This document shows, one piece after another, positions 14,806 to 46,134 of a stretch of 49,921 nucleotides of DNA. Below the pieces are notes generated by a model. The model worked only from the letters and a program-made list of their open reading frames with translations. It was not told the DNA's origin and ran no database searches. The stretch's first letter is position 1. Each line of letters opens with the position of its first letter. Origin of the DNA: a virus; IMG/VR virus record IMGVR_UViG_3300006805_000042, positions 1 through 49,921 of that record; one strand, written 5' to 3'. A program made the translations under genes and the position numbers.

Positions 14806-15105
14806 ATGTCAAACTTCGTTGACGCAGGTGTCGTTGCGCGACACCTTGGACTGACACGCCGATCGATCCTGCATTACGCGAAGACCGGACGAATACCCTC
14901 CCTCAGGGTCGGTAGGCATTGGCGTTTTTCTATCGCTGCGGTCGTGGAGTTTGTCGCGTGTCCACTCACATCTACAGACGTAAAGGCAGTCGCTACTGGC
15001 AAGCTCGGCTCACTCGATCCGATGGATCTTACCACCGGGTCTCTACGGAGTCGCCTGATGAAGGTGAGGCGCAACGCATTGCGGAACTCCTCCAGCAGGA
15101 GTTAA
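14806..15105 (+). CDS. Excisionase-like helix-turn-helix protein
   Basis: 99 residues from ATG 14806. Residues 4-50 match the AlpA/Xis class of HTH domain: DAGVVARHLGLTRRSILHYA, then RIPSLRVGRHWRFS and a final helix AAVVEFVA. Residues after about 51 lie in the alternative frame of the integrase gene and look non-globular. The overlap with int is about 148 bases, unusually long. A -1 shift near the end of the HTH domain would fuse it to the integrase. Role inferred: directionality factor or regulator of integration. Confidence 0.75.
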   Translation: MSNFVDAGVVARHLGLTRRSILHYAKTGRIPSLRVGRHWRFSIAAVVEFVACPLTSTDVKAVATGKLGSLDPMDLTTGSLRSRLMKVRRNALRNSSSRS

Positions 15106-16025
15106 CCGATAGTGAGGCCCCTGGTGGGTTGCTCTTTTCCCAGGCCCACGAGCGGTACATCCAGGCAGCGTTGCTGAAACCCAACACGATAAGGAGTTAC
15201 ACAAGCTCGTATCGTACAATCCTGAAATTTCTGGGAGATTTCACACTCTCTTCCCTGAAAACTGAAAGCATTCATCACTATATAAGGAATAGGATTGCCA
15301 AGGTCTCGCACGCTAGAATCAAGCGCGATCTCAGCTACCTATCATCCATGTACAACTGGTGGTGCCTGCAACCCGATGGACCTCGTGACAACCCTGTACG
15401 CCAACTCAACCGCAGGCAGTTTGGATTACGGGAAAGCAAACCCCGTACCAAGTGGCTCACGGAGGAGTTGTTCGAGCATCTGCTGGCCTGTGCGGAGAGC
15501 CCGGTCTATCGGGCGATCCTCATCCTGGCGGTGGAGACAGGAATGAGGCAGTCCGAGATCCTAGGTTTAACACGATCTGAGGTGGACTTACGTCGGCGGA
15601 GAGTGGTCCTAGGCAATCTGAGTGGAGCTCGAACCAAGAGCTCCAAGTCCAGGATCATCCCACTGACTCCGAGGGCACTGGAAGCACTCTCCAGCACACT
15701 CATGACACACAGAGCAGATCACGTATTCCGTGGGTCACGCTTGGGGTTACCGATGACCCGTGTGAATTGGTGGTGGCCCCAACTCTGCACCAAGGCTGGG
15801 ATTACCAACTTTCGGTTTCATGATCTGCGACATACCTTCACCTCTTGGGCAAGCCAACGGGGAGTCGAGGAGCGGGTCCTACAGCAGCTCCTTGGACATT
15901 CGACCAGATCTCTCACTCACAGGTATGCCCATCTACGCAGTGAAGACCTGGAACAAGCTATTCAAAAGTTCACGGATGGCACACTTTCTGACACACATGC
16001 TGAGGATCGGGCCAGCGATGAATAA
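14958..16025 (+). CDS. int: Tyrosine recombinase (phage integrase)
   Basis: 355 residues from GTG 14958, chosen because GGAG lies 8 nt upstream and the sequence MSTHIYRRKGSRYWQARL is a typical integrase arm-binding start; a TTG at 14919 gives a longer frame. A SAM-like core-binding domain (residues about 55-150) is followed by the catalytic domain with R in TGMRQSE, H-x-x-R in HDLRHTF, H in LLGHS and the nucleophile Tyr in HRYAH. It catalyses integration at the adjacent attP, whose core starts 30 bases after the stop codon. Confidence 0.95.
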   Translation: MSTHIYRRKGSRYWQARLTRSDGSYHRVSTESPDEGEAQRIAELLQQELTDSEAPGGLLFSQAHERYIQAALLKPNTIRSYTSSYRTILKFLGDFTLSSLKTESIHHYIRNRIAKVSHARIKRDLSYLSSMYNWWCLQPDGPRDNPVRQLNRRQFGLRESKPRTKWLTEELFEHLLACAESPVYRAILILAVETGMRQSEILGLTRSEVDLRRRRVVLGNLSGARTKSSKSRIIPLTPRALEALSSTLMTHRADHVFRGSRLGLPMTRVNWWWPQLCTKAGITNFRFHDLRHTFTSWASQRGVEERVLQQLLGHSTRSLTHRYAHLRSEDLEQAIQKFTDGTLSDTHAEDRASDE

Positions 16026-25225: not shown

Positions 25226-25645
25226 ATGAGCAGGAACTCCGGTAAAGCCAGTGAAGCAGCGTTCGTAACTCGATACCGAAAGCTTGGTAAGCGGTGTTAC
25301 GTCTACAGGTTCCGCGATATGAGCGACCTGTTCGGGATAAATGGGGGCAAAAGGTTCAAGCTTCCGCCCCTCCCTTCCGACTTCCTGGTTGTCCACAACG
25401 GAGCGGTTCAATTCGCCGAGGTGAAGTCCACCCAGGACCCACGCGCTTTCCGATTTAGCATGTTGAGCAAGGACCAATGGGCAGCCGCCGTTAAGATCAC
25501 GGCTGCCCTTGGTACCTACATGATCTACGTGCATAATCTGCTGAGCGATACTTGGTACAAGGTTCCCTTCTCATACTGTGTATTAACAAAAGACGCGGGA
25601 ATGAACTCGTTGTCTTGGACAGAAATGGGTCAGTTCCAGTGGTAG
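25226..25645 (+). CDS. PD-(D/E)XK nuclease, RecU/VRR-like
   Basis: 139 residues from ATG 25226; no clear ribosome binding site. The catalytic pattern is PSDFLVVHNGAVQFAEVKST: Asp in PSD, then E-V-K after a strand, as in Holliday junction resolvase-like and archaeal-type nucleases. The opening SGKASEAAF with a conserved Glu also fits. Probably resolves branched DNA during recombination or packaging. It overlaps the DEDDh gene by 7 bases. Confidence 0.82.
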   Translation: MSRNSGKASEAAFVTRYRKLGKRCYVYRFRDMSDLFGINGGKRFKLPPLPSDFLVVHNGAVQFAEVKSTQDPRAFRFSMLSKDQWAAAVKITAALGTYMIYVHNLLSDTWYKVPFSYCVLTKDAGMNSLSWTEMGQFQW

Positions 25646-26205
25646 AGTTTCCTGATATCCAAATTGACATTGAGACCACAGGTCTACGTCCAGATCGATG
25701 TGCCATTATTCAAATCGGTGCGGTCAAGTTCAACTATGAGAACGAGACTGTAGACGGAGGTTTCTTTAACCGATCCATGCACATGCCACCCCATCGATAC
25801 TGGGATCCAGAAACGAGGGTTTGGTGGTCTAAGCGTAAAGACGTCTATGAAGACATCATGCGTAGGGCGGAAGATCCTCGTACCGTGATGCAGGACTTCG
25901 CTGACTGGGTTGGTTATGGGCACAGCGAACCCCTGAGATTCTGGGCTAAGCCCATTAGCTTCGACAGTGCGTTCATCGAGAGCTACCTACATGACTACAG
26001 CATACCATCACCATTCTCCCACAGACATGCCACCGACCTGATGAGTTTCATCAAAGGCGCTCGGGGCAATATGGACGTTAACTCAGTGTATAGAGAGTGT
26101 CCAATGGAAGGAACGGCGCACAACGCCCTGTTCGATGCCCTCTATCAGATAAAGCTTGTCTTTTATGTTAAGTCAACCCTTAGCAAGGTAACGAAAGATG
26201 CGTAG
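25639..26205 (+). CDS. DEDDh 3'-5' exonuclease
   Basis: 188 residues from GTG 25639, chosen because it starts just before the first motif and overlaps the previous stop; the upstream frame to 25552 is read-through. Catalytic residues: D10 and E12 in IDIETTG, Asp in ISFDSAF, and His/Asp in AHNALFDA. These proteins trim DNA or RNA 3' ends; the similar architecture to epsilon/RNase T suggests proofreading or repair. It overlaps the membrane cassette by 8 bases. Confidence 0.88.
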   Translation: MVEFPDIQIDIETTGLRPDRCAIIQIGAVKFNYENETVDGGFFNRSMHMPPHRYWDPETRVWWSKRKDVYEDIMRRAEDPRTVMQDFADWVGYGHSEPLRFWAKPISFDSAFIESYLHDYSIPSPFSHRHATDLMSFIKGARGNMDVNSVYRECPMEGTAHNALFDALYQIKLVFYVKSTLSKVTKDA

Positions 26206-26737
26206 TCTCTGCTTCGCCTACACCTCCCTGCTCAACATCGCGGGGTTCGGGTTCCTCTTCGCCGCTTACTGGGCTGGGTGGTTGATTCCACTGTTCAGGG
26301 ACGATAACACTTACGTCGTCTATGGAATCGTCGCCCTGTTTCTAGTAGGTCTCATCGACTGTTGGATCAAATCATGGAGGCTGTCCCGCTGGGAGGCTAT
26401 CCCCCTGGCTGTCCACCACGGTGTGGATAAGAACACGCTGCTGAAGGAGCGTTTCGACCACATGATGTCCCTCCCCTATTGGCTGTCCACCGAGGTTGCC
26501 ATGCTCGGGATGATCGGAACCTTCGTGGGTATCATCATCGCAGCCTCCCATCTGGATCCGAGCCTTCTGAACGATGCGGCTTCAGCTACACCCGCAATGG
26601 CAGAGTTCCTGAAGGAGACGATTGCAAGCTTCGGTAAGTCCATGGTTGGTGCCTCCCTGGCTCTGTGGCTCGCTGCTGATCTCTACATCTTGAACTCTCG
26701 TGCCTTCGACATCCGTAACTCAGAGGTGGCAGCATGA
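26198..26737 (+). CDS. MotA/TolQ/ExbB-like proton channel subunit
   Basis: 179 residues from ATG 26198. Four hydrophobic helices are visible at about 10-32, 39-57, 98-116 and 144-163. The last two carry the family signature: MLGMIGTFVGIIIAA and FGKSMVGASLALWLAADL. MotA/ExbB-type proteins form proton-driven motors with a MotB/ExbD partner, which is encoded two genes downstream (26912). Cytoplasmic part between helices 2 and 3 is short compared with MotA and similar to ExbB/TolQ. Role in the phage unknown: see findings. Confidence 0.82.
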   Translation: MRSLCFAYTSLLNIAGFGFLFAAYWAGWLIPLFRDDNTYVVYGIVALFLVGLIDCWIKSWRLSRWEAIPLAVHHGVDKNTLLKERFDHMMSLPYWLSTEVAMLGMIGTFVGIIIAASHLDPSLLNDAASATPAMAEFLKETIASFGKSMVGASLALWLAADLYILNSRAFDIRNSEVAA

Positions 26738-26919
26738 AGCCGTTTCCTTGGTTGCGCGAACTAATTTGGTGGTGGGGCATAGGGGTCGTCGTTTATGGCA
26801 TCGGCTACCTAGCTACAGGCCACTTCGTATTGACGGACTTGCTGGTGAACCCGACCATGTTTTGGATCATTAATTGGCTGGGCTATCATCAATGTGTAGA
26901 GGTCCATCGAGATGTTTAG
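26734..26919 (+). CDS. Small two-helix membrane protein of the cassette
   Basis: 61 residues from the ATGA overlap at 26734. Trp-rich start (LRELIWWWGIGVVVYGIGYL) followed by a second hydrophobic stretch (NPTMFWIINWLGYH). It overlaps the ExbD-like gene by 8 bases, so the channel subunits and this protein are made together. No family recognised. Confidence 0.78.
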   Translation: MKPFPWLRELIWWWGIGVVVYGIGYLATGHFVLTDLLVNPTMFWIINWLGYHQCVEVHRDV

Positions 26920-27514
26920 CTCCAGACGGAACGCCATCATCTTTGCTGATATGCTGTTCCTCATGATGGTAACTGCTATCATGATTGCCTTCTTCACTCT
27001 CCCGTTGGTCAACCCCAAAGCCAAGGCAGAGAAGGATGACACAAGCTCGCCACCCGGTGTTGTGTCCGTCGAGGTCATCTGGCCGCCTTCCATGGACGCG
27101 GACATTGATCTCTGGGTCCAAGCACCGGGTGATGTGCCGGTAGGCTACTCGAACAAGGGAGGTGCCATCTTCAATCTCCTCCGCGATGACCTCGGGAACA
27201 TGCTCGATCTTAGTGGTCTGAACTACGAGAACGCCTACTCACGCGGGGTCTATGCCGGAAGGTATATCGTCAACCTGCACTTCTACCGAAATCGCGCGGG
27301 TGTAGCGATTGTTCCTGTCAAGGTCTTCGTCAGTGTCAAGAACGAGACCAACGGAACGATGAAGAAGATCCTGATGAGTGAGGTCAAGATGGACGCTGAA
27401 GGCAAGGAGGTTACTGTGTTCCGCTTCGAGCTCGATGATAAGGGTGAGCTCGTTAAGGGCAGTGTCGACCAGTTGCAGACTGAACTCAGGACGTATAAGG
27501 GACGAGTTAAATGA
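26912..27514 (+). CDS. ExbD/MotB-like protein with DIDLWV beta-domain
   Basis: 200 residues from ATG 26912. One membrane helix near residues 10-32 carries an Asp (FADMLFLMMVTAIMIAFF), as in ExbD, TolR and MotB, where this Asp takes part in proton flow. The periplasmic part is a beta-domain with ADIDLWVQAPGDVPVGYSN, GGAIFNLLRDDLG, NYENAYSRGVYAGRYIVNLH and a second part PVKVFVSVKNE. I do not know a named function for this domain; it is not the peptidoglycan-binding OmpA domain of MotB. Partner of 26198 by order and size. Confidence 0.75.
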   Translation: MFSSRRNAIIFADMLFLMMVTAIMIAFFTLPLVNPKAKAEKDDTSSPPGVVSVEVIWPPSMDADIDLWVQAPGDVPVGYSNKGGAIFNLLRDDLGNMLDLSGLNYENAYSRGVYAGRYIVNLHFYRNRAGVAIVPVKVFVSVKNETNGTMKKILMSEVKMDAEGKEVTVFRFELDDKGELVKGSVDQLQTELRTYKGRVK

Positions 27515-27624
27515 ACGTGGTGATAGGGCTTCTTGGGGTTCTGTTTGTTGGCCTCAAACTTACAGGTTACATTGATTGGAGCTGGTGGCTGGTCACGCTT
27601 CCGTTCTGGTGGGCTTGGCTCTAG
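27511..27624 (+). CDS. 37-residue Trp-rich membrane protein
   Basis: From the ATGA overlap it reads MNVVIGLLGVLFVGLKLTGY, then IDWSWWLVTLPFWWAWL. Two short helices separated by a L-T-G-x-I-x-W-S-W-W motif. I recall short phage and bacterial membrane proteins of this pattern but no assigned function. Coupled translation and codon use support it being real. Confidence 0.75.
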   Translation: MNVVIGLLGVLFVGLKLTGYIDWSWWLVTLPFWWAWL

Positions 27625-27731
27625 CTGCTAGTATCTTTCTCATTGGGTGTATTGCAGTTGGATCTGCTGCGGTTCTCAGTGGTACGAAACCGAAGATTAC
27701 TTGCAGAGTAACTCGGGGTGGGAAGCGATGA
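27585..27731 (+). CDS. 48-residue membrane protein overlapping its neighbour
   Basis: Frame from GTG 27585 to TGA 27731 encodes one clear membrane helix (VLVGLALAASIFLIGCIAVG) and a basic tail KPKITCRVTRGGKR. It overlaps the previous gene by 40 bases and the next by ATGA. Start is uncertain: GTG 27609 or TTG 27615 would shorten it. The ATGA end junction is the main evidence that it is translated. Confidence 0.6.
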   Translation: MAGHASVLVGLALAASIFLIGCIAVGSAAVLSGTKPKITCRVTRGGKR

Positions 27732-27922
27732 CACTAGGTTCCGTAGAACGTGAAGCTTTGAAGCGCGCGATGGAACTTATCAATCTTCATCTGTTTGCGG
27801 ATCGGATTGTGATCTCAGAGGGGACTGTAGGTGGTCCACATCCGTCGAGGTTCCGAGTGAGGCTCATCATCAAGGAAAAGGTTACTGAAACCATTGAGCA
27901 AACAGTATTGAAGGATCTGTAG
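27728..27922 (+). CDS. Small soluble protein in the membrane cassette
   Basis: 64 residues from the ATGA overlap at 27728; the longer frame to 27647 is shadow of the previous gene. An N-terminal helix (VEREALKRAMELINLH) is followed by a basic beta hairpin (PSRFRVRLIIKEKVT). It has no membrane helix, unlike its neighbours. Function unknown. Confidence 0.72.
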   Translation: MTLGSVEREALKRAMELINLHLFADRIVISEGTVGGPHPSRFRVRLIIKEKVTETIEQTVLKDL

Positions 27923-27924
27923 TC

Positions 27925-28422
27925 ATGATCACACCCTACTTCCTCATCTCTCTTACTCTCCTCATCGCCGTAGCTGCTTTCGGATGTGCGTTTTCCAAGC
28001 GTGTGATCCCGATCCTTCTCCTCGTTGCTCTCTTCATTCCCGTCTCCTACGGTGCAGTCTCCTCCCTTATGGGTAAGCCGAAGCCAGTGCGGTTGGAGTG
28101 GGCCAAGCCCCGTGTCGAGGAAGCCTTGGTGGTAGGCTCTGTGATCCGGGAGGGGGTCGGTATCTTCGTTTACATCCTCCTTCCTGGTGAGGTCGAGCCC
28201 ATGTCTTACGTGCTCCCTTGGAATGAACAGGCAGCAGAGCAGTTACAGAAGGCTGAAGCCAAGTCGGCACAATCCGGCAAGAAGGGAGCAATGGTAAAGC
28301 TACCCTTCGAGATGAGCTTGGATCCGAGTGTTCCTAGGTTTTACGATCTACCGCAGCCGCAGATGCCAGAGAAGCAACCTCCGGTTGAAGATAAGCCAAT
28401 GGTTTTGGAGAGGTCTACGTGA
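27925..28422 (+). CDS. Membrane-anchored protein with LPW domain
   Basis: 165 residues from ATG 27925, two bases after the previous stop. Two N-terminal hydrophobic helices (FLISLTLLIAVAAFGCAF; VIPILLLVALFIPVSYGAV) are followed by a soluble domain: KPVRLEWAKP-RVEEALVVGS, GIFVYILLPGEVEPMSYVLP, WNEQAAEQLQKAEAKSAQ. The end is Pro-rich. I associate this arrangement with proteins found next to ExbB/ExbD-like pairs in other phages, from memory only. Likely part of the same complex. Confidence 0.75.
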   Translation: MITPYFLISLTLLIAVAAFGCAFSKRVIPILLLVALFIPVSYGAVSSLMGKPKPVRLEWAKPRVEEALVVGSVIREGVGIFVYILLPGEVEPMSYVLPWNEQAAEQLQKAEAKSAQSGKKGAMVKLPFEMSLDPSVPRFYDLPQPQMPEKQPPVEDKPMVLERST

Positions 28423-28589
28423 ATCTGAAAATACACTTTTGGGCCGGCTACTGTACGGCACTAGCCTGTCTGATCCTGATCCCAGTCGAACTTACATGGA
28501 CATATGCCCTTGCGATGACCCTAGGTTGCTTCCTATTCGATGTGGGACTTACTAAGTGCATTGAATACGCAAATCGGAAGGTGACGTGA
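28419..28589 (+). CDS. 56-residue two-helix membrane protein
   Basis: GTG 28419 in a GTGA overlap opens MNLKIHFWAGYCTALACLIL and continues to a TGA that overlaps the GTG of the SbcD-like gene. Two short hydrophobic segments and a basic end (IEYANRKVT). It closes the membrane cassette and links it directly to the recombination nuclease. Confidence 0.7.
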   Translation: MNLKIHFWAGYCTALACLILIPVELTWTYALAMTLGCFLFDVGLTKCIEYANRKVT

Positions 28590-29563
28590 TCAACATCAAC
28601 GGCTTGAGCATCAAGCTCCTAGGCGATCCACACATTGGAAAGACCTTCAAGAATGGCGTCCCGCTTCACCGTCGTGGTGAGCGGGAAGCCTCACAAATGG
28701 AGACCTTTCGTAAGTCTTTTATGTGGAATGACGAGTTCGATATTCACATCAACCTAGGAGATCTTTTTGATAAGCCTTATGTCCCAACTGAGTTGATCCT
28801 TCAGACCGCAGAGACATACTTGTGGGCAGCGAAGCATCGACGATACACGCAGTTCATCGTCATCGCTGGTAATCACGAGCGACACAAAGACCTGGAGAAG
28901 CGCTCCGGGTTTGATGTGTTTAAAGCTATCGTCGCTTCGGTTCCGAATATCAGAGTGATCGAGGAGCCTGAGGTTATCACCTTTACGACAAACGATAGCC
29001 GGAAGGATTTGAGGATTGGGTTCGTTCCTTGGCATCCCGTGAAGACCGCTGAGGAGATGGTTCGTTCACTCAACCGAGGGATCGACACCCTGTGTGCACA
29101 TTTTGATATTCACCCCCTGAGTGATCCACATAACATGATCCCAACGAAGCTAATGGCTGAGCTCGGGATCACTACCTATTACGGGGGCCACGACCACCTC
29201 CCACGCATCGAGACCAGAGACGGTGTCACCATCAACGTAGTCGGCTCGATGCAGCCTTACTCTCACTCGGAGGATCCTGATGAAAGACTCTACGTGACCC
29301 GCGATCTCGATACCGTACGTGCTGATCCTTCTCGCTACCACGACAAATGTCTTCGGATCGAACTCGGCCCTGGAGAGAAGCTGGACTTCGACATCGATTG
29401 TCTGCAACTCACCTTGAAGAAGGCAGGTGTTGAGGAGGAAGACATCTCGGTTCAGATGGATGAGTTCAATCTGGACCGGTTGTTGGAGGAGAGCCTAGTG
29501 GACATCGACGAGGGTATCGGAATGTTGGTTAGAGACAAGTATCAAGAATTGAGGAGTCGGTGA
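28586..29563 (+). CDS. sbcD: SbcD/Mre11-like nuclease subunit (T4 gp47 type)
   Basis: 325 residues from GTG 28586 (GTGA overlap). Phosphoesterase motifs in order: GDPHIG (about 13-18), GDLFDK (about 58), GNHER (about 95), and GGHDHL (about 200). The domain after them (YHDKCLRIELGPGEKLDFD) matches the capping region. With the SbcC-like ATPase at 30267 it would form the nuclease that processes DNA ends and recombination intermediates. Confidence 0.92.
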   Translation: MININGLSIKLLGDPHIGKTFKNGVPLHRRGEREASQMETFRKSFMWNDEFDIHINLGDLFDKPYVPTELILQTAETYLWAAKHRRYTQFIVIAGNHERHKDLEKRSGFDVFKAIVASVPNIRVIEEPEVITFTTNDSRKDLRIGFVPWHPVKTAEEMVRSLNRGIDTLCAHFDIHPLSDPHNMIPTKLMAELGITTYYGGHDHLPRIETRDGVTINVVGSMQPYSHSEDPDERLYVTRDLDTVRADPSRYHDKCLRIELGPGEKLDFDIDCLQLTLKKAGVEEEDISVQMDEFNLDRLLEESLVDIDEGIGMLVRDKYQELRSR

Positions 29564-29667: not shown

Positions 29668-29756
29668 TCATCATAGGTCTCTTATTAATGGTGATTGTGG
29701 TGGCTATGCTGGTAGTCAGTGGATTAATCCTTTATGAGATTTGGAGGGGTTGGTAA
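29664..29756 (+). CDS. 30-residue membrane micro-protein
   Basis: GTGA overlap opens MIIIGLLLMVIVVAMLVVSG, then LILYEIWRGW; stop TAA overlaps the next ATG. Single hydrophobic helix with a charged Trp-containing end, similar in size to the 21-residue protein at 6392. GGAGGGG inside its end serves the following gene. Confidence 0.65.
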   Translation: MIIIGLLLMVIVVAMLVVSGLILYEIWRGW

Positions 29757-30265
29757 TGACCATCTGGTTCACCGCAGATACCCACTTCGGTCACGCTAAC
29801 ATCATCAAGTATTGTAACCGTCCATTCTCCTCTGCGGAGGAGATGGATAGAACAATGATCAACAATTGGAATGAGCGGGTTAAGCCTGATGATACAGTCT
29901 ATCACTTAGGTGACTTCTCGTTTAAGACAGCACACCGGTATACCGATCGTCTGAATGGAAACATCAAGTTCCTTTGGGGTAACCACGACAGCCGATCCCA
30001 GGTCGAGCGCAACGTCGAGCTTCTGGGTCACTATCACGAGCTAGAGCTGAACGGACAACTTATCGTTCTCTGTCACTACAAGTTTGAGGTATGGAACTGT
30101 TCTCATCGTGGGGCGCTGCACTTCTACGGACACTCCCACGGCACGCTTGCAGGAGATAGTCAGTGTGTGGATGTTGGGGTTGATAACTTCGATTTCGCTC
30201 CGGTAACGCTGGAACAGATACGGAAGCGGTTGACGACACATTGGAAAAGGAAGGATATGTTTTAG
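29756..30265 (+). CDS. Calcineurin-like metallophosphoesterase
   Basis: 169 residues from ATG 29756 (TAATG). Motifs: ADTHFGH (7-13), HLGDFS (about 50), GNHDSR (about 75), CHYKF (about 107) and YGHSHG (about 123). The short single-domain form is the YfcE/phage type, with likely activity on cyclic or phosphodiester substrates, not a DNA-end nuclease. It stands between the SbcD-like and SbcC-like genes. Confidence 0.88.
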   Translation: MTIWFTADTHFGHANIIKYCNRPFSSAEEMDRTMINNWNERVKPDDTVYHLGDFSFKTAHRYTDRLNGNIKFLWGNHDSRSQVERNVELLGHYHELELNGQLIVLCHYKFEVWNCSHRGALHFYGHSHGTLAGDSQCVDVGVDNFDFAPVTLEQIRKRLTTHWKRKDMF

Positions 30266-32240: not shown

Positions 32241-32488
32241 GGATGAAACTATCTGACACCACAATTCCCCAACTTAGTGTATTTGGTGATCTTCCACCTT
32301 GGAGGATCGCTAACCTCTTAACACAGTTCAAGGAGGACTACCCCGAGGGCAAGGTTCGGCCCCGCAACTGCGTCATCTACGGCCCTGTTGAAGAGGACCC
32401 CAACATACCTTACGTTGCCATCTACCGTACGGTAGGCGGCTCAATCGTTATGAGGAAGTGTGAAGATGAAGATAGCTCTGATCAGTGA
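32237..32488 (+). CDS. Small hypothetical protein
   Basis: 83 residues from the ATGA overlap at 32237. Sequence FKEDYPEGKVRPRNCVIYGP, IPYVAIYRTVGGSIV reads as a compact alpha/beta protein, acidic at the end. It overlaps the next phosphoesterase by 23 bases. Unknown function. Confidence 0.72.
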   Translation: MRMKLSDTTIPQLSVFGDLPPWRIANLLTQFKEDYPEGKVRPRNCVIYGPVEEDPNIPYVAIYRTVGGSIVMRKCEDEDSSDQ

Positions 32489-33170
32489 CCTACATGGTGC
32501 ACCACCTCCCCCGATTGAGGAGGAGGAGGAGGTGGACATCGTTCTAGCGGCGGGAGATATAGACACGGGCGAACTCGGCCACACTGTCTTAACGGACGCC
32601 TACGGTGACATTCCAGTTATCACAATTGCTGGTAATCACGAGTTCTACGGATCCTGGCATATTGATATACGCCACTCGCTTGGCGTCTACCCTGGTTACA
32701 CTGAGCGTGAGGACGTTGGCCTGGGAGACATCCGCCTTCTAGCCTGCACCCTCTGGACCGACTTCAACTTGTACGGTGATCAGGCCAAAGCAATGGTTGA
32801 GGGATTATACGGATTGAACGACTTCCGTATGATCCGAGGGTGGTCTCCAAAAAGGCAGTTGGAGGTACATAAGATTTCCTTGCGTTGGCTTGAGGCCAAG
32901 CTCAAGGAGCCATTCGATGGTAAAACAATCGTCATGACCCACCACTGTCCCTCCCACCTCTCAGTGAACCCAAAGTATGGCTGCGATCCACTCAACGCCT
33001 GCTTTGCTTCTAACCTTGACTACTTGTTCCCTCACGTCGATCTGTGGGTTCACGGTCATACACACACTCCCTTTGATTACACGGTCGGAAGATGCCGAGT
33101 GGTGTGTAACCCGATGGGATACAAAGGCGAGAACCCAGGTCCTTATAAAGCGAAGGTGATCACACTATGA
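32466..33170 (+). CDS. Calcineurin-like metallophosphoesterase (third in region)
   Basis: 234 residues from ATG 32466, preferred over GTG 32460 because GAGGA lies 9 nt upstream. Motifs: LISDLHG (4-10), AAGDID (about 30), GNHEFY (about 56), THHCPSH (about 159) and VHGHTHTP (about 196). A charged insert (IEEEEEVD) stands between the first two motifs. The motif order and short length fit the general phosphodiesterase class; substrate not predictable. ATGA overlap with the next gene. Confidence 0.88.
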   Translation: MKIALISDLHGAPPPPIEEEEEVDIVLAAGDIDTGELGHTVLTDAYGDIPVITIAGNHEFYGSWHIDIRHSLGVYPGYTEREDVGLGDIRLLACTLWTDFNLYGDQAKAMVEGLYGLNDFRMIRGWSPKRQLEVHKISLRWLEAKLKEPFDGKTIVMTHHCPSHLSVNPKYGCDPLNACFASNLDYLFPHVDLWVHGHTHTPFDYTVGRCRVVCNPMGYKGENPGPYKAKVITL

Positions 33171-45363: not shown

Positions 45364-46134
45364 TTATTGTGATCCTTTATCATTGCGGGCCTTGACCCGA
45401 GAGTAAAATGTGTAGGCCACGCCGAACAATGTGAGCGCTACGAAGGCAAATTTAATATACTCGATTTCAATACCTAGGGAGTGCAACTGTGTGTAGGCAA
45501 CGCCGACACTATCAGTCATCTCACTCAGAGCGCTACCCACGATACCGACAGAGGCCAGGATTTGGCCCTGACCTTCTGGGGTCTTACTGACCGGGATGGG
45601 GGCCTTGAACAACGGAGTGACGAAGCGCATGCGCTCAGCCTCTCGTCTGTTGGTCAAACCCTTGTTCTCAACCTTACCATTCTCTGTGGTAATCTTGTTC
45701 CACTTTGGGAACTCAGCAACGGCTCCGCCGAAGTCCCCCGCGTTCAGCTTCTTTAGAAGCTTGGATATCTGGAACGCGGGGGCTCCGACGTTATACACGA
45801 AGGAGACTAGAGCGGCGAACTGATTGTCATTCAGTTCAACCCTCACGAGACGTTGGACCACCTCCTCTCTTGGCTTCAGGTCTTCATTGAGAAGAAGCTC
45901 AGCCTCTTCTCTGGTGATACCGCCGGGGTAGAGAGCGAACGCTTCCTCTTTGGTGCAGTTCGCCTTGGTTAGTCGCTTACCAGTCTTAGGGTCGACAATC
46001 GTGTGACCCCAGCCAATAGTCCAGATCCCGGCCGGACACAGGTAAGGATCAAGGTTGACGGTTGATGGATCACCGTCGCCCAGTCCTTCGTACGCCTTAA
46101 TGAGTTCAATACCAACCTGCGCAACCCGTCTCAT
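45364..46134 (-). CDS. Endolysin (GH24 lysozyme) with C-terminal membrane helix
   Basis: 256 residues from ATG 46134. Lysozyme core: catalytic Glu in KAYEGL, then PYLCPAGIWTIGWGHT, FAALVSFVYNVGAPAF and LTNRREAERMRF. After the enzyme domain (about 170) follow a linker and a membrane helix near residues 228-247 (YIKFAFVALTLFGVAYTFYS). Endolysins with an N-terminal SAR helix are common; a C-terminal anchor is unusual and may control release of the enzyme. Confidence 0.9.
   Translation of the reverse strand: MRRVAQVGIELIKAYEGLGDGDPSTVNLDPYLCPAGIWTIGWGHTIVDPKTGKRLTKANCTKEEAFALYPGGITREEAELLLNEDLKPREEVVQRLVRVELNDNQFAALVSFVYNVGAPAFQISKLLKKLNAGDFGGAVAEFPKWNKITTENGKVENKGLTNRREAERMRFVTPLFKAPIPVSKTPEGQGQILASVGIVGSALSEMTDSVGVAYTQLHSLGIEIEYIKFAFVALTLFGVAYTFYSRVKARNDKGSQ

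Follow-up and report, generated by a model that had tools for sequence, protein, structure and literature searches.

A putative ion-driven inner-membrane motor encoded by a three-gene operon of phages and Alphaproteobacteria

Introduction

Ion-driven motors of the bacterial inner membrane are few, comprising those of the Tol, Ton, Mot, gliding and Zorya systems, and each of them opened a field. For the Ton and Tol motors, a recent review lists Thr148 and Thr181 of ExbB, Thr145 and Thr178 of TolQ as well as Asp25 of ExbD (Asp23 of TolR) as essential residues (PMC12905483). The present analysis concerns a stretch of viral DNA of 49,921 bases (virus record IMGVR_UViG_3300006805_000042 of IMG/VR; in the following, the window), for which an earlier note had proposed a cassette of eight overlapping genes that encode at least six membrane proteins, including ExbB/MotA-like and ExbD/MotB-like subunits. 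Three of these genes, here designated A, B and C, probably encode inner-membrane motors that are driven by ions, form a new subfamily and act on the host envelope in phage, this being the best overall explanation of the data.

Searches of the mostly open-access literature on ExbB/TolQ-type genes in phages yielded nothing on the A-B-C set and no functional description. The putative motor set is unannotated, and two of its subunit families (B and C) are absent from Pfam, NCBIfam and PADLOC. The three genes and their key positions in the window are as follows:

Gene A, 26198..26737, + strand: 179 residues, MotA/TolQ/ExbB-type channel subunit, probably four transmembrane helices
Pore-threonine equivalents of A, + strand: T108, codon 26519-26521; S148, codon 26639-26641
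Gene B, 26912..27514, + strand: 200 residues, subunit in ExbD/MotB position; helix 3-33, linker, eight-strand beta domain at about 51-174
Asp13 of B, + strand: codon 26948-26950
Gene C, 27925..28422, + strand: 165 residues; helices 2-23 and 27-48, followed by a small beta-alpha domain

Results and discussion

The channel subunit A

The MotA/TolQ/ExbB signature that the earlier note had read in A is borne out by the family as a whole. A profile of 52 A sequences retrieved MotA (8gqy, 1e-9), ZorA (8qyy, 3e-7) and TolQ (8odt, 1.6e-6) from the PDB, with E-values ranging from 1e-9 to 2.5e-3 across the solved MotA, ZorA, TolQ and ExbB chains. The first-round homologues of A all match Pfam MotA_ExbB (PF01618; 10/10, best 3.3e-6), and a chromosomal homologue reaches 38 bits, i.e., a value above the curated threshold of 22.9 bits. 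Alignment to E. coli ExbB by hhalign (1.2e-5) superposes the motifs GLFGT and ALLAT of ExbB, in which Thr148 and Thr181 are located, on T108 and position 148 of A. Position 108 is occupied by Thr in 44 and by Asn in 8 of the 52 sequences, position 148 by Thr in 50 and by Ser in 2; with cellular sequences added (106 in total), the counts are 91 Thr, 12 Asn and 3 Lys for position 108, and 104 Thr and 2 Ser for position 148. Judged from these profile comparisons, A is a true MotA/TolQ/ExbB homologue.

Compared with TolQR/TolA (Tol-Pal) and ExbBD/TonB (Ton), A shares the signature of the channel fold and both pore-threonine positions. The flagellar stator MotAB/PomAB provides the best profile match of A (MotA, 1e-9) and shares with A the apparent number of four helices; however, B lacks an OmpA-like peptidoglycan-binding domain, an extra subunit (C) is present, and no flagellar or motility genes were noticed beside A-B-C.

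The core of A also matches ZorA (3e-7), a subunit of the same motor class, and ZorA is among the closest solved relatives of A. Together with weak matches of PADLOC ZorA models to A (best 7.5e-9) and the patchy, mobile distribution of the operon, this might indicate a Zorya-like defence, in which A and B would detect the damage that an incoming phage inflicts on the envelope and would respond by killing or an attack on DNA. We consider such a function unlikely, since A (138-310 residues, versus 480-730 for the models, only the core matching) is devoid of the long ZorA tail, which Zorya requires (PMC11890865), an OmpA-like domain is missing from B, and no PADLOC model matches B or C. Moreover, no conserved partner of the ZorC/D/E type was found beside the cellular operon, the neighbours of which were not scanned one by one against Zorya effector models. 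Membership in Zorya proper was rejected on account of the missing ZorA tail and OmpA domain.

The Asp-helix subunit B

The AlphaFold2 model of B (predicted local distance difference test, pLDDT, 91.2) consists of one N-terminal helix (residues 3-33), a linker and an eight-strand all-beta domain. It thereby agrees with the earlier proposal of a single Asp-bearing helix followed by an unusual beta domain in place of an OmpA-type one. Both sequence motifs on which that proposal had been based, one in A and one in B, are located at the positions given and are shared by homologues. Asp13 is invariant in all 53 representative, nearly all phage-derived, B sequences (53/53) and aligns with the Asp of TolR and ExbD, though the alignments cover just 17-18 residues (P about 0.01 each). 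As in TolQR/TolA and ExbBD/TonB, an Asp helix is part of a set of two small subunits and a third protein with a periplasmic part, whereas the outer domain of B differs from these systems in being an all-beta sandwich.

No family was found for B in Pfam, NCBIfam or PADLOC, and the Pfam models of ExbD and OmpA do not match. A Foldseek search of the PDB with B gave no significant match, no TolR-type fold among the best 50 matches, and no OmpA-like fold among the top matches. Given the all-beta domain and the absence of an ExbD match, B is not a member of the ExbD/TolR family proper. Its outer domain is under strong constraint, as indicated by the invariant residues W57, D64, D66, L89, D92, G95, E106, R111, G116, N121 and T168.

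The profile search with this outer domain, suggested in the earlier note, yielded no Pfam or NCBIfam family and only a weak likeness to the YfaP/DUF2135 domain via a D-x-D-L motif and a G-x-Y-x-V strand (hhalign P 3.5e-4); Pfam DUF2135 (PF09906), however, matches none of ten B proteins (0/10). A B-like beta domain is also contained in gp284 of Acinetobacter phage ME3 (KU935715.1, ME3_284; 671 residues), as detected by the B profile (1e-6) and by Foldseek, which pairs both domains. Unlike the phages with A-B-C, phage ME3 has no MotA_ExbB match anywhere in its genome. A TerD fold, suggested by a BFVD hit with the name "tellurium resistant like", was not supported (hhalign against a TerD sequence, P 0.32), and no kinship was concluded from that name.

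The third subunit C

C had been listed in the earlier note only as an open reading frame (ORF) to be searched; it proved to be the third conserved partner of A and B, with a small domain that has no known relative. The AlphaFold2 model (pLDDT 85.8) displays two N-terminal helices followed by the small beta-alpha domain, which is predicted to be periplasmic on account of the positively charged residues of the interhelical loop. No sequence match, no solved-structure match (PDB fold search) and no Pfam, NCBIfam or PADLOC family was obtained for C. This distinguishes C, with its two N-terminal helices, from the third proteins of the Tol and Ton systems.

Co-inheritance of A, B and C in phages

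Relatives of B were found in 27 phage records, and a scan of viral contigs yielded 105 relatives. Among the 95 distinct B loci, A adjoins B in 94, and about 92 have C (87 from the main C cluster and 5 from a divergent one), in line with the co-inheritance expected in the earlier note; the neighbourhood survey proposed there likewise revealed recurrence of the A-B-C set in unrelated phages. All three genes occur together in about 90 distinct loci, ranging from 16-3-like temperate phages to T4-like phages of 150-174 kb. Nine annotated Rhizobium/Sinorhizobium phage records, which span 16-3-like temperate phages, Pootjesviridae, and phages of 68 kb and 171 kb, share the gene order A-B-C without exception. 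A and B are separated by ≤20 bp in 72 of 93 loci (overlapping in 66), B and C by ≤20 bp in 51 of 90, the remainder being mostly split by small ORFs or homing-endonuclease-like genes. Comparison of the A, B and C distance matrices gave correlations of 0.84-0.87, which none of 999 permutations reached, although shared ancestry alone would give the same result. Phages bearing the operon come from soil and sea.

In phages, A is cut down to its membrane core (138-180 residues), as compared with 200-310 residues in cells. The shortening could indicate poison subunits, i.e., phage A and B that mix or compete with the host's TolQR or ExbBD and thereby block Tol- or Ton-dependent entry. This is highly improbable, since A, B and C co-evolve as one unit and occur on their own in cells, suggesting that they work with each other, and since the residues of the ion path are retained although a poison could do without them.

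Chromosomal copies and ancestry

The cassette is not specific to phages, since the same operon is located on bacterial chromosomes (loci L173-L225, L226-L241 and L091-L094), among them those of many Alphaproteobacteria, and a phage-only system was accordingly rejected. At E≤1e-5, the B profile found matches in 63 of the 385 alphaproteobacterial genomes sampled, and the match is strong in 55 of these (about 14 %, or about one in seven sampled species). Used alone on the same genomes, the C profile matched 54, all of which belong to the 55 with strong B (B present in 54/54); in the single strong B genome that it missed, C was found beside B at 2e-7. All three genes are present in every cellular locus examined. 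Named carriers are Thalassobaculum litoreum DSM 18839 and relatives. Among Pseudomonadota, 17 of 399 genomes matched the B profile at 1e-20.

One complete operon resides on a 412-kb contig of a Parcubacteria metagenome-assembled genome (JACPBB010000002.1, L091), the only one of 287 genomes of this phylum, for which both misbinning and transfer are possible. A DegP-like protease is encoded next to the operon on this contig, on the opposite strand.

The neighbours of the cellular operon are unrelated between lineages and often on the opposite strand, and recur among close relatives (genome groups L216/L218/L220 and L217/L221), suggesting a self-contained, vertically kept operon. From this stable, apparently vertical inheritance with the same neighbours in related genomes, including genomes of 1.3-1.8 Mb, and from the strong copies in 55 of 385 species, one may deduce an auxiliary host-function set: the operon would fulfil an ordinary envelope task (nutrient uptake or outer-membrane upkeep), which phages keep running during infection. 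We regard this as possible but not probable, because B was found in only 3 of 200 Rhizobiaceae genomes, in all cases with phage-sized A (135-154 residues). Thus, Rhizobium phages import an operon that their hosts mostly lack.

A quick tree of 113 B proteins revealed two deep groups, each of which mixes phages and cells, and its well supported branches force at least four switches between the labels phage and cell. The B protein of the window is placed beside a mainly cellular group (Shimodaira-Hasegawa-like approximate likelihood ratio test, SH-aLRT, 93), the nearest cell protein being 51 % identical; its exact position is unsure due to a long branch. Repeated exchange of the operon between cells and phages is the best reading of this interleaved ancestry.

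The locus in the window and its flanks

The eight overlapping ORFs at 26198-28589 are all present at the coordinates of the earlier note, most of them joined by 4-bp overlaps of the ATGA type, and the flanking genes proposed there were identified by Pfam and PHROG. In addition to A, B and C, the following features were recorded:

25552..26205, + strand: upstream flank, RNase_T/Rv2179c-like 3'-5' exonuclease (Pfam PF16473, 1e-24)
26734..26919, + strand: small hydrophobic ORF between A and B, 61 residues, no family
27511..27624, + strand: transmembrane ORF, 37 residues, PHROG 1374 (function unknown; match 2.2e-10)
27576..27731, + strand: transmembrane ORF, 51 residues, no family
27728..27922, + strand: soluble ORF, 64 residues, no family; its ATG overlaps the preceding stop (mechanical ORF start at 27647)
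28419..28589, + strand: ORF with hydrophobic helices, 56 residues, no family
28586..29563, + strand: downstream flank, SbcD-like nuclease subunit (PHROG 100, 2.7e-18)

All eight ORFs are real. The conserved core comprises A, B and C only; the intervening small ORFs lack such conservation and do not belong to it. The ORF at 26734-26919 is probably outside this core, since A and B adjoin or overlap in most loci. Chance or mis-called ORFs were rejected as an explanation of the cassette by the profile matches, co-inheritance and complete cellular operons.

A PHROG scan of the window ORFs assigned no function to the cassette, and detected an integrase (14919-16025), a helicase, a DNA polymerase of family-A type, a thymidylate synthase and an endolysin (45364-46134, minus strand), from which content the phage is probably temperate. 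A 5-kb part of the window holds three metallophosphoesterase-like genes, i.e., the SbcD-like gene (28586-29563; PHROG) and two judged by sequence only (29741-30265 and 32460-33170).

Phage neighbourhoods

Several neighbours of the operon in other phages are related to the envelope. A secreted trypsin-like protease is encoded upstream of A in 28 loci (e.g., the 16-3-like loci L001:2274-3173 and L120:6621-7331). Five phage contigs (L160, L162, L163, L166, L167) carry an SbmA/BacA peptide transporter (Pfam, 1.6e-124) directly after C and a secreted ClpP-like protein before A. A further neighbour gene, of the epimerase family, reads from its sequence as GDP-mannose dehydratase-like. In several phages, the operon is interrupted by HNH or Seg-like homing-endonuclease genes, which lie either between A and B or between B and C:

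Homing-endonuclease insert loci: L002:4547-5089, L004:3258-4016, L007:3249-3986 and L117

In one phage group, C is followed by a SleB-type cell-wall hydrolase, and some phages of the window's clade, including the 16-3-like ones, encode an endolysin about 1.7-6 kb from the operon. Such an arrangement would fit a module for lysis or envelope disruption that assists in breaching the outer membrane when infection ends. This role appears improbable: the lysozyme of other phages, where detected, is about 18-31 kb away, the endolysin of the window lies at 45364-46134 on the other strand, and a lysis device would be odd on bacterial chromosomes. A general lysis module was rejected, since only some of the phages have an endolysin near the operon. 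Replication and transcription genes surround the operon in the window and in T4-like phages, a setting that also argues against a late lysis role. No T4-type late promoter was found upstream of A, but the motif is almost absent from the examined stretches, rendering this result uninformative.

Proposed mechanism and function

Sequence comparisons showed that A is a homologue of known channel subunits, that the residues of the ion path are conserved, that the three genes are co-inherited and also form an operon in cells, and that phage and cellular copies are interleaved in ancestry. It is very probable that A-B-C represents an ion-driven motor. We infer the 5:2 stoichiometry, the flow of ions, the participation of C in the complex and the output.

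A, B and C would form a single machine of the inner membrane. By analogy to ExbBD, TolQR, MotAB and ZorAB, five A subunits may surround the helices of two B subunits. Ions moving down their gradient would reach the Thr/Ser ring of A via the Asp of B, and their passage may rotate A around B, as in these relatives. The motion could then be conveyed to the periplasm via the beta-sandwich domain of B together with C, which would replace the OmpA/TolR-type domain and probably also a transducer of the TonB/TolA type. In phage, the most likely target of the machine would be the envelope of the cell during infection or lysogeny.

Several observations weigh against this interpretation. (i) The A protein of the window carries Ser instead of Thr at position 148 and fails the Pfam MotA_ExbB cut-off (E 0.0079; 16.4 versus 22.9 bits). 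(ii) With cells included, Asp13 is absent from 14 of 106 B sequences, the acid being located about one turn earlier. Thirteen of these form one cellular clade (mostly genomes of 6-9 Mb) with Val or Ala at the site, which an Asp or Glu precedes by about one helical turn and a Lys often follows by one turn; one of the thirteen (L230) is a mis-extended ORF (loci with shifted acid: L229-L239, L202, L224 and L200). Conservation of the Asp, anticipated in the earlier note, is thus lost or shifted only in this clade and one other cell sequence. (iii) The topology of C is derived from charge counts only. (iv) Neighbours vary by lineage, and those in the window are replication and repair genes, from which an envelope role is not readable.

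The envelope is the likely target of the motor. As benefit for the phage, superinfection exclusion or envelope remodelling is proposed tentatively; it is ranked first on the basis of the Rhizobiaceae mostly lacking the operon, the envelope-related phage neighbours and the non-late gene setting, followed by support of an ordinary host function, with Zorya-like defence and lysis ranked lower.

Significance

In addition to Ton and Tol, the A-B-C set may constitute a third class of general envelope motors powered by ions, a view slightly less likely than not. Such a class would be common in Alphaproteobacteria, possess a new output unit (B domain and C), and have been recruited by unrelated phages to gain control over the host envelope during infection, e.g., to exclude competing phages. 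Since the operon is present in cultured phages, i.e., 16-3 of Sinorhizobium meliloti and Pootjesviridae, the role of the putative motor is open to experiment now.

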